From contig CAJOPO010000300.1 of the NCBI GenBank assembly GCA_905236315.1, forward strand, positions 1-5,521: DNA of 5,521 nt, read 5' to 3'. Shown here piece after piece: positions 3,294-5,410 of the stretch. The DNA comes from an uncultured Treponema sp. GTDB taxonomy: Bacteria > Spirochaetota > Spirochaetia > Treponematales > Treponemataceae. Positions within the stretch are counted from its first letter, which is position 1, and every line of letters starts with the position of its first letter. A model generated the notes under the pieces. The model ran no database searches. It was not told the DNA's origin and saw nothing but the letters and a program-made list of their open reading frames with translations. The position numbers and the translations under genes are program-made.

Positions 3294-3341
3294 AGAGCCT
3301 TAAGACTTTGGCTTAACTCTTACGCTTTATTCTAAAGTCTT
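3294..3341 (-). promoter_or_regulatory. Inverted repeats at the 3' end of the minus-strand operon
   Basis: Two overlapping pairings exist: AGCC (3296-3299) with GGCT (3310-3313), and AAGACTTT (3302-3309) with AAAGTCTT (3334-3341). The second straddles the acetyltransferase stop codon. Neither is followed by a U-run in minus-strand reading, so this is at most a 3'-end-protecting structure or a weak or factor-dependent end. I found no convincing intrinsic terminator for the operon within the window. Confidence 0.25.
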
Positions 3342-3893
3342 TATAATCTTTGCAGGAACTCCGCCTACGACAGTCATTGCAGGAACATCTTTGGTTACTA
3401 CCGCTCCTGCTGCAACCACAGCCCCTTTACCAATCGTAACTCCGGGAAGAATTGTTGCATTTGAGCCAATCCACACGTTCTCTCCAATATAAACTGGTAA
3501 AGGGAATATATCAGCACGATTTTCTGGAGCAAGGTCATGATTTAGAGTAGCAATGACTACGTTATGCCCAATGAGCGCACCATCGCCAAGCGTGATTTCC
3601 CCTTGGTCTTGAAAGCGACAGCCAGCATTTATAAATACATTGCGCCCAACAGTGATGTTCTTTCCACAGTCGGTTGTGAAAGGTGGAAACATTCTAAATG
3701 AGTCATCAACCTTTTTCCCCGTTAGTTCAGAAAATAGAGAGCGTATTTCTTCTGGGGTATGGTACGAGCTGTTTAATTCCGCCGTGATTTTTAGGGCTTC
3801 TTGAGAGAGTTCACTCATTTTTAGATGTGTAGGGGAGCCTGCGACAACACGTTCCTTTGTTGCCATAATCTGTAAAAATTCTTTATTTGTCAT
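3327..3893 (-). CDS. Maltose/galactoside-type O-acetyltransferase (left-handed beta-helix)
   Basis: A cytoplasmic acetyl-CoA-dependent transferase that acetylates a hydroxyl of a sugar or similar small acceptor; the acceptor is unknown. Its 188 residues match the Maa/LacA/NodL family. Residues about 3-58 form the helical N-terminal maltose-acetyltransferase domain. From about 73 hexapeptide repeats of the left-handed beta-helix run to the C-terminus: [36 protein letters not shown] and VVAAGA. His119 in TLNHD is the expected catalytic base, and the final [10 protein letters not shown] (175-184) is the family's closing signature. All expected parts are present. The start is supported by AGGA (3902-3899) 5 nt before the ATG, and that site overlaps the TAG stop of the gene before it. 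The 7-nt gap means translational coupling is likely. It is last in the three-gene operon. In many bacteria such genes are thought to detoxify non-metabolised sugars, which is only a family-level guess here. Confidence 0.93.
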
Positions 3894-3898
3894 ATTTA

Positions 3899-3902
3899 TC
3901 CT
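3899..3902 (-). promoter_or_regulatory. Shine-Dalgarno overlapping the upstream stop codon
   Basis: In minus-strand reading TAGGAT shares the AG of the lipoprotein gene's TAG stop with the AGGA that serves the acetyltransferase, 5 nt before its ATG. A ribosome ending on the first gene covers the start site of the next, the usual mark of coupled translation. Confidence 0.7.
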
Positions 3903-4395
3903 ATTGCAAAATTGAAAATATAGCAGTTACGTTTCCTGCGCCAAGAATCCTTTTTAGTTCTGCTTGACTAACATTGTCTACCTTACCAAGTCGTGTAAAA
4001 TTCCATGAATTAACATCATAGTAGATTGTAATCTGGTTTCCTTGATAGAGTATGATGTCTCCCGCGCTAGTGGTGATTTGCGTATCAGTGCGCGGAAGAG
4101 ATGTGCCAAGCGAACCCACTTTCTCAAAACTACCATAGTCGTGCATGGCAACTGATACTTCGCCTTTTTTCAAAAGTTCGTAAAACGCAATGGCAGATTT
4201 ATTATCTGCAAGTGTTGCAGTAAGTGTATGATTTCCGCTATTGCTTGTAATATCTATTTTAATTTTCATTGTAGAATCACCTCCTGTACTAGATAATTTG
4301 CTGCCGTTCTCGTTAGAACCATTTGCAAAACTACCTACGCATGCCGTTATGGAAAGCAAAATGAAAATAAGAAAGAATAAAACATTTTTTTTCAT
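3901..4395 (-). CDS. Cyclophilin-like fold lipoprotein, with probable internal second start
   Basis: A 164-residue protein with a lipoprotein signal peptide: Lys2-Lys3, a hydrophobic run (5-16), and a lipobox-like SITAC ending at Cys19. Val follows the cysteine, so there is no Asp retention signal. A flexible Gly/Ser/Asn linker (20-42) leads to a cyclophilin-like beta-barrel domain (about 43-164). It shows the family's [17 protein letters not shown] (59-75), then MHDYGSFEK (84-92), [15 protein letters not shown] (112-126) and a C-terminal LGKV...[13 protein letters not shown] pattern. Such proteins (TM1367-like) resemble cyclophilin in fold; prolyl isomerase activity is not established and the role is unknown. 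The ATG at 4395 has AAGGAG upstream but with a rather long 10-nt spacer. A second in-frame ATG (Met43, 4269-4267) has a stronger Shine-Dalgarno and lies exactly at the domain boundary, giving a 122-residue form without signal peptide. It sits 31 nt after the hydrolase and 7 nt before the acetyltransferase, so it is in the same operon. Confidence 0.87.
4276..4285 (-). promoter_or_regulatory. Internal Shine-Dalgarno before Met43 of the lipoprotein gene
   Basis: In minus-strand reading AGGAGGTGAT is a perfect 10-nt complement of the conserved 16S rRNA 3' tail. It is followed by 6 nt and then ATG in the frame of the lipoprotein gene. The spacer from the AGGAGG core is 10 nt, a little long but equal to that of the first start. 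It encodes part of the linker (GGD), so coding need could explain part of it, but the length of the match is unusual inside a gene. Confidence 0.6.
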
Positions 4396-4426
4396 TGCTC
4401 ATTTTCTCCTTGCAACATAGTGTCTT

Positions 4427-5410
4427 TTATTTTAAATTACTTTTCATAAAATCGTCAATTTTTGCAAATGGAATTTTATCCTTATTATCGTACAAGTCTA
4501 CATGGCTTGCTTCAGGGATAATCATAAGTTCTTTATTTGCAGCAAAGGGGGAACCTTCTGTCATGTTTTTAAAAGCGTCTTCACTAAAATAACGGCTATG
4601 CGCTTTTTCTCCATGAATGACAAGAACAGCATTTTCAATTTCGTTAGAATAAGCAAGCAATTTTGTATTAAGAAGAGATGTTCCCGCTGTTACATTCCAG
4701 CCACCATTTGAATTTAGACTGCGTTCGTGATAGCCACGTGGTGTTTTGTAATAGGCATAGTAATCTTTAACAAACTGAGGAGCATCTTCTGGGAGGGGGT
4801 CAATTACACCACCGGCTAGTTTGTATGTGCCACCTGAAGAAACTGCCTTAAAATCTTCTATTCTCTGTGCCATAAGAGCCTTTCGAGCTTTGTTTCTTGC
4901 TTCTATAGAATTTGCAATATCGAAATATCCATTTGCTGTAACACGGCTCATATCATACATTGTGCTTGCAACGGTTGCCTTTATGCGTGTATCTATTGCC
5001 GCTGTATTTAATGCCATTCCGCCCCAGCCACATATTCCAATGATTCCTATTTTATCTGGGTCGATATTCTCTCTTGTAGAAAGAAAGTCAACTGCTGCCA
5101 TAAAATCTTCTGTGTTAATATCAGGGCTGTTCATATAGCGCACTTCCCCGCCTGATTCACCTGTAAAAGAGGGGTCAAATGCTAAGGTAATGTAACCACG
5201 ACTTGCCATTTCGTTAGCGTAAAGCCCGCTTGCTTGTTCCTTTACAGCACCAAAGGGACCGCACACTGCAATGGCTGGATTTTTTTTAGTAGCAGGTAAG
5301 TCTTTAGGGGCGTAAAGGTCGCCTACAAGTTTAATGCCAAAGTGATTTTTAAATGTAACCTTTGTGCGTATTACATTTTCGTTTAAGGTAAATGTGTAAT
5401 GTTCTTCCAT
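4427..5410 (-). CDS. Alpha/beta hydrolase with predicted Cys nucleophile
   Basis: A 327-residue soluble alpha/beta hydrolase of the dienelactone-hydrolase/YcjY-like type; no signal peptide is visible, so cytoplasmic. The substrate is unknown. Residues 16-38 match the usual entry strands (VTFKNHFGIKLVGDLYAP). GPFGAVKEQASGLYA (51-65) carries the oxyanion-side loop, and AFDPSFTGESGGE (77-89) is highly characteristic of this family. The nucleophile elbow is GICGWGG (125-131), with Cys127 where a Ser is usual. Glu268 in VIHGEKAHSRY and His303 in PEASHVDLYD would complete a Cys-Glu-His triad. The segment 158-245 forms a cap with NSNGGW (233-238). The ATG at 5410 is chosen because GAGG (5419-5416) lies 5 nt upstream; it gives about 15 residues more than the conserved core needs, so a slightly later start is not excluded. 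It is the first gene of the operon, directly behind an unusually palindromic upstream region. Confidence 0.9.
   Translation of the reverse strand: MEEHYTFTLNENVIRTKVTFKNHFGIKLVGDLYAPKDLPATKKNPAIAVCGPFGAVKEQASGLYANEMASRGYITLAFDPSFTGESGGEVRYMNSPDINTEDFMAAVDFLSTRENIDPDKIGIIGICGWGGMALNTAAIDTRIKATVASTMYDMSRVTANGYFDIANSIEARNKARKALMAQRIEDFKAVSSGGTYKLAGGVIDPLPEDAPQFVKDYYAYYKTPRGYHERSLNSNGGWNVTAGTSLLNTKLLAYSNEIENAVLVIHGEKAHSRYFSEDAFKNMTEGSPFAANKELMIIPEASHVDLYDNKDKIPFAKIDDFMKSNLK

Follow-up and report, generated by a model that had tools for sequence, protein, structure and literature searches.

Can one gene furnish both a lipid-anchored protein and a cytoplasmic one? The question is raised by a 5,521-nucleotide stretch of an uncultured Treponema sp. 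(hereafter the window, meaning that whole stretch), in which the gene for a predicted lipoprotein carries a second putative ribosome site and start codon inside its own reading frame. Based on comparison with its relatives, we consider it probable that the gene gives rise to a lipid-anchored form of 164 residues and a cytoplasmic form of 122 residues, by way of a second in-frame site and start that are kept as nucleotides in most relatives examined.

The lipoprotein gene and its predicted product

The right half of the window is occupied on the minus strand by a packed operon of hydrolase, lipoprotein and acetyltransferase genes, with the following features.

3327..3893, minus strand: hexapeptide acetyltransferase gene, downstream in the operon (open reading frame and profile matches; no obvious signal peptide)
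3901..4395, minus strand: long form, predicted lipoprotein of 164 amino acids with signal peptide, Cys19, linker and Cyclophil_like2 domain (open reading frame, PF18050 match, Cys19 from the sequence)
3901..4269, minus strand: putative short form of 122 amino acids, the whole domain, predicted cytoplasmic (first strand at 44-51 in the AlphaFold model; database proteins of 122-123 amino acids)
4267..4269, minus strand: candidate internal start codon ATG, Met43 (sequence; ATG or GTG in 92 of 98 readable same-genus entries)
4270..4338, minus strand: linker, residues 20-42, predicted unstructured (AlphaFold pLDDT and secondary structure)
4276..4285, minus strand: putative internal ribosome site AGGAGGTGAT, a 10-nt complement of the genus 16S tail (sequence, RNAduplex)
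4339..4395, minus strand: signal peptide and lipobox up to Cys19 (codon TGC at 4341-4339, ...SITAC; read from the sequence)
4406..4411, minus strand: AAGGAG, ribosome site of the long form, 10 nt before the ATG at 4395-4393 (energy -8.3)
4427..5410, minus strand: alpha/beta hydrolase gene of the Peptidase_S15/DLH type, upstream in the operon (open reading frame and profile matches; no obvious signal peptide)

The Cyclophil_like2 domain (PF18050) spans residues 53-158 (E 4.8e-21; 75.4 bits against a curated cut-off of 22.7). By eye, an n-region, a hydrophobic stretch and a lipobox cysteine are all present in the 164-residue protein, and the lipobox rule was used for calling Cys19 a lipoprotein signal. 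In the AlphaFold model, block-mean pLDDT is 43-54 for residues 1-40 and 94-98 thereafter, with no secondary structure until residue 44 and a first strand at 44-51; the product starting from Met43 would thus be the whole predicted domain. Congruent with this, a preliminary description of the locus had placed Met43 at the opening of the cyclophilin-like domain, with signal peptide, Cys19 and linker all before it. Foldseek returned KslB (E 1e-5, TMq 0.58) and the cyclophilin-like 3kop (E 2e-4, TMq 0.49) as top matches, the TM scores being moderate for a query that includes 42 disordered residues, while a PDB sequence search with the window protein gave no match.

The outer AAGGAG also lies 3 nt before an out-of-frame ATG, which opens a frame of about 23 codons overlapping the signal peptide (4402-4331, minus strand). 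On the plus strand, a GH3 glycosidase gene (PF00933, PF01915; 789-3188) with a signal-peptide-like N-terminus is convergent with the operon, and is itself preceded by a fragment of a GGDEF cyclase.

A second ribosome site within the reading frame

Read along the minus strand, AGGAGGTGAT (4285-4276) is followed by the six nucleotides TCTACA and by ATG (4269-4267), codon 43 of the 4395-3901 reading frame. The 3' end of the 16S rRNA is GGATCACCTCCTTT in three same-genus genomes, and AGGAGGTGAT pairs perfectly with it; a 16S search of the window's own incomplete genome gave no match. The ten-nucleotide anti-Shine-Dalgarno match six nucleotides before an in-frame Met43, from which the preliminary description had set out, is hence confirmed at these positions against the 16S tails of three genomes.

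The pairing energy upstream of Met43 is -16.6 (RNAduplex). In 1.2 Mb from three related genomes, none of 5348 internal in-frame ATGs was as strong, and neither was any of 735 putative true ATG starts, the latter defined as the first ATG within 60 nt of an upstream stop, a rough rule rather than an annotation. The inner site is far beyond chance for a single site, and it is much stronger than the outer one (-16.6 against -8.3). A separate scan of the same 1.2 Mb, covering 251 signal-peptide-like reading frames, found 19 of 316 inner ATG or GTG codons reaching -7.5. PF18050 genes account for 4 of those 19 (one in G001, one in G060 and two in G068), the G001 and G060 matches being orthologues by coordinate and sequence.

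Conservation among relatives

As judged by comparison, it is the relatives that make the putative inner site a family feature. A match was present in 97 of 200 same-genus genomes; a search of genome contigs supplied 80 loci, the best 80 of 97, some of them, going by their titles, from Fibrobacter, Bacillota, Atopobiaceae, Synergistaceae and Bacteroidales. The Met43 column was then read from an alignment of 155 non-identical homologues. Among 98 readable same-genus entries, 92 have a start codon there (90 ATG and 2 GTG), the six exceptions being CTG (followed by ATG), GGA, TAC, AAG and two 5'-truncated genes. Among the 92, a site of -6 or stronger precedes Met43 in 63 of 73 distinct linkers (mean -8.06) and is weaker in the remaining 10. 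The same threshold is reached by 444 of the 5348 internal ATGs and by 325 of the 735 putative true starts. For internal methionines of other predicted lipoproteins, the count is 7 of 48 (0.146; average -2.9), at least one of these 48 itself belonging to a PF18050 protein.

Fibrobacter linkers behave similarly, with 12 of 13 distinct linkers at -6 or stronger (mean -9.5). A valine column read as GTG was considered there as proof of the start codon and rejected, since other valine columns in Fibrobacter are mostly GTG too. In other phyla, excluding proteins with an N-terminal flavodoxin-type fusion, a start codon lies within four codons of the column in 23 of 27 rows, 21 of which reach -6, a search that favours chance because nine positions and three start codons were allowed. 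Five of the nine flavodoxin-type fusions reach -6 or stronger (L086, L088, L095, L096 and L098); the other four (L041, L055, L084 and L094) comprise one with a start and no site and three with no start. A start codon or a site is likewise missing at this position in L181, L188 and L201 in the genus and in L037 and L079 in other phyla. In the paralogue clade L193-L197, which contributes to the 10 weaker same-genus linkers, the methionine is kept and the site is weak and AGGTGAAAA-type, and these genes may have lost the inner start. Predicted mRNA accessibility is slightly raised at the inner site (0.518, against 0.473 at internal ATGs and 0.483 at true starts), a small effect.

Upkeep of nucleotides, not only of residues

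As a null that keeps composition, codons were permuted within each linker, with counts including related sequences. In the genus, the observed energy is -8.31 against -3.25 for the shuffle; 81 of 81 linkers are stronger than their own null mean and 41 fall in the lowest 5%. The corresponding values are -9.85 against -2.35 in Fibrobacter (20 of 20 stronger than their null mean, 19 within 5%) and -8.57 against -4.23 in other phyla (19 of 21, 7 within 5%). Recoding the same residues with the codon usage of the genus gave -6.24 against an observed -8.0 across 66 distinct octapeptides (Wilcoxon p 1.8e-11), the observed energy standing at a median 20th percentile of each linker's own synonymous recodings. 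Thus, the residues used explain much of the motif, not all of it.

The motif is spelled in several ways: AAA GGA G (KGE, KGV, KGD), CAA GGA GCA (QGA), AAG GAG (KE), AAA AGG GAG (KRE), TGG AGG (WR) and ACG GAG G (TE). Together these occupy three coding frames, with at least 17 frame changes on a domain tree of 120 rows (11 with strict cores), at least 10 of them within the genus (6 with strict cores); the counts are rough, the tree being short, with 48 of its 115 inner branches unresolved. Since three frames are used, with repeated switches on the tree, the inner site is kept as nucleotides and not only as a peptide. The alignment of homologues, suggested earlier as a check, does not show the free variation that would have refuted the preliminary description: the GGD residues of the window vary, yet the site and the start codon are kept in most homologues read (the 63 of 73 distinct linkers above).

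Codon choice was also inspected. Glycine at codon -5 is GGA in 39 of 39 cases, and the next codon is GNN in 39 of 39 despite encoding E, G, V, D or A (near-copies included); for serine at codon -2 before the methionine, all four TCN codons are used. GGA followed by G is found at 49 of 68 linker glycines at -2 to -6, against 7 of 113 elsewhere in the linkers. GGA bias alone was set aside as not decisive, two glycine columns of the domain also being about 75% GGA. By position, GGAG, GAGG or AGGA never exceeds 4% of linkers at any single site between -45 and -17, and climbs to as much as 34% between -16 and -9. The spacing from GGxx to the start is 8.7 ± 2.6 nt, and the last cysteine lies 8-41 codons from the methionine (n 60). 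In these alignments, it is from the start codon, not from the lipobox cysteine, that the putative inner site keeps a set distance.

The outer start and natural variants

Pattern matching located a signal-peptide start in 69 of 73 relatives, with a mean energy of -7.11 and 72% at -6 or stronger; one of these 69 (L119) is spurious. The export signals among the 69 comprise 46 with a strict lipobox, 12 more with a lipobox-like cysteine by eye, and 11 that are type I-like or have none. In 70% of the relatives with a pattern-found export start, the inner site is the stronger. Judged from their sites, both starts look live.

Natural variants exist in which the outer start is altered. L119 and L022 have CTG at the export start and tyrosine in place of the lipobox cysteine, with the domain, inner site and ATG intact, and P0159, the database protein of the L119 contig, is called from the inner methionine. 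The species of L119 seems to be losing the export module, and some export-frame product is possible in both, since weak initiation at CTG can occur. L250, from another family of the class, is a distant PF18050 gene (37 bits); it is free-standing, has no signal peptide and carries GGAGGAG before its ATG. Addition of an export module to an older cytoplasmic gene and loss of such a module are accordingly both possible, L250 being free-standing and L119 apparently losing its module.

Alternative explanations

It could be argued that the inner start alone is used, the upstream signal-peptide frame being untranslated. The greater strength of the inner site in the window (-16.6 against -8.3) and the CTG and missing lipobox cysteine of L119 fit such a situation, as does the fact that 55 of 182 database proteins among the matches listed are 122-123 amino acids long and begin at the inner methionine, although starts set by gene callers are not independent evidence, because ribosome-site scoring drives them, and express caller preference rather than cell behaviour. 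Against it, pattern matching located an export start in 69 of 73 relatives; 72% of these starts have a site of -6 or stronger, and 46 of the 69 have a strict lipobox. The window itself retains its outer ATG, site, hydrophobic stretch and cysteine; we regard this explanation as highly improbable. Another possibility is an elongation pause, in which the Shine-Dalgarno-like stretch slows the ribosome as the signal peptide emerges and so aids export, with no second protein. According to excerpts of one study, E. coli membrane proteins are enriched for such pauses at codons 16-60, a proposed targeting aid (PMC4359368), and the window resembles them in having a Shine-Dalgarno-like stretch early in the coding region of a membrane-targeted protein, at codons 37-40. 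The elements described in those excerpts are, however, not tied to a start codon, and periplasmic proteins appear depleted of them (PMC4359368). A pause needs no start codon, whereas the spacing from the motif to ATG or GTG is tight and the distance from the last cysteine is wide; its position is not one set by a signal or membrane segment independently of the start codon. Moreover, the site is kept far from the signal peptide, behind about 300 residues in L177 and in five of the nine flavodoxin-type fusions. We therefore think a pause unlikely.

The site might instead be a relic, a decaying and useless leftover of an old gene in front of which a signal peptide was fused. The GGAGG before the same domain start in the distant, free-standing L250 would agree with such a history, as would the different N-terminal modules of the relatives (lipobox, type I, DUF362). 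At such divergence, however, a relic would be expected to approach the shuffled value of -3.25, while 66 distinct octapeptides, a motif in three frames and strong sites in 63 of 73 linkers are observed, and we judge it very unlikely. This bears on the proposal of the preliminary description that the old ribosome site still works: the site is indeed kept, whereas the differing frames and residues across lineages fit active upkeep better than a leftover. Finally, linkers rich in glycine, lysine and glutamate could acquire purine-rich codons that happen to look like a ribosome site, and synonymous recoding of the same residues does give -6.24. Composition alone is nevertheless rejected by the codon shuffle (-3.25 against -8.31); the motif is also nearly absent elsewhere in the linkers, and internal methionines of other predicted lipoproteins average -2.9, leaving chance composition with very little probability.

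Relation to known two-form genes

We thus favour two products from one gene. Ribosomes would enter a single mRNA at either site; the long product would enter the Sec pathway and be lipidated at Cys19, while the short product, without a signal, would remain inside. Dual localisation by an internal start is already known in bacteria from single genes. HBP35 of Porphyromonas gingivalis is described, in excerpts of the report, as having a long signal-bearing form, part of it at the surface, and short signal-less forms from internal in-frame methionines, supported by start-codon replacement (PMC2907840). The window gene is alike in that a single gene would give a signal-bearing long form and a signal-less short form from an inner methionine; it differs in that HBP35 is a single gene for a thioredoxin/haem protein rather than a Cyclophil_like2 protein, and those excerpts do not mention that its inner site is conserved between phyla or in several frames. 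The same excerpts cite PilB (MsrA/B) of Neisseria meningitidis, which exists as a secreted outer-membrane protein and, by initiation at an internal AUG, as a cytoplasmic one (cited in PMC2907840). As described there, the short form of PilB loses its thioredoxin domain, whereas that of the window would retain the sole folded domain. As for these genes, the window has an in-frame inner start and putative ribosome site after the signal peptide, and its short form would be signal-less and hold the fold predicted by AlphaFold. In Salmonella, excerpts of a study by ribosome profiling and proteomics suggest truncated signal-less forms of OmpX and PagC, as well as a shortened yfhG lipoprotein whose outer-membrane location may be lost (PMC11005335). 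Those proteoforms, as presented there, come from experiment in one species, whereas the present case rests on comparative sequence only, but extends across phyla.

A literature search combining cyclophilin-like with PF18050 found nothing, and no report of dual forms from an inner start in the PF18050 family was seen among the matches listed, by title and abstract opening. The part that is new to us is the family-wide, cross-phylum and frame-switching conservation: in Treponema, in Fibrobacter and in relatives belonging to other phyla, the inner ribosome site persists as a family feature although its frame changes. Should both forms be produced, every database entry of the PF18050 family covers just one of two products. 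The combination used here, a motif kept across coding frames and a null of linkers with shuffled codons, could reveal further dual-compartment genes from sequence alone.

Neighbours, fusions and possible partners

Within two genes on the same strand, the 98 same-genus homologues have flavodoxin (30), hydrolase (29), aldo/keto reductase (16) and DUF362 (12) neighbours; in 25 of the 98, the gene immediately upstream, on the same strand, encodes a related hydrolase. In Bacillota (L042 being assigned to Bacterium only), the cyclophilin-like domain is fused to aldo/keto reductase in L042, L043, L074, L078, L080 and L091, to flavodoxin in L076, and to flavodoxin plus aldo/keto reductase in L061. All of these bear a signal, and in each the domain is preceded by a start codon with a site of -6.3 to -10.4. 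In the genus, L131 is a signal-cyclophilin-aldo/keto reductase protein and L177 a signal-DUF362-cyclophilin protein. A hydrolase-cyclophilin fusion in L200 was considered as a link between cytoplasmic partners and found weak, since of the hydrolase no more than a C-terminal fragment is present.

The cofactors that aldo/keto reductases and flavodoxins normally require are cytoplasmic. The inner form might serve NAD(P)H- or flavin-linked partners, a suggestion drawn from the Bacillota proteins, where the inner start precedes a domain fused to flavodoxin and/or aldo/keto reductase. A bolder and rather doubtful extension would be a small redox system in two compartments, in which cyclophilin-like proteins, their flavodoxin partners and flavodoxin/aldo-keto-reductase fusions, each with an export signal and a conserved inner start, provide matching envelope and cytoplasmic versions in anaerobes of several phyla. 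By a crude pattern, exported-looking hits in the fetched DNA amount to 42 of 62 flavodoxins, 16 of 16 DUF362 proteins, 14 of 32 aldo/keto reductases and 12 of 46 hydrolases. With so many neighbour-type proteins of exported appearance, the exported form may be the principal product. The preliminary description had put the short form in the same compartment as the operon enzymes; this holds insofar as the window neighbours have no obvious signal peptide, and is weakened by the exported look of many neighbour-type proteins in relatives.

The exported flavodoxin neighbours, in which no inner start was apparent at the domain, were tried as a negative control and rejected, since many carry GGAGG and ATG inside the signal peptide. 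GGAGG (or GGAGC) with an in-frame ATG is found there (LLLGGFIM) in L009, L024, L040, L138 and L151, and likewise in L156, L164, L166, L172 and L180. In this strict set of 10 the first glycine is GGA in 10 of 10 and the second codon varies; synonymous recoding gives -7.6 against an observed -9.2, so that the residues explain much of the signal. The exported flavodoxin is possibly a second gene with an inner start.

A neighbour at the L184 locus, which we take to be a cupin-bearing, carboxymuconolactone-decarboxylase-like protein, is a lipoprotein with the linker ...ISKGEHT before a methionine and an energy of -10.2, the layout being repeated in another family.
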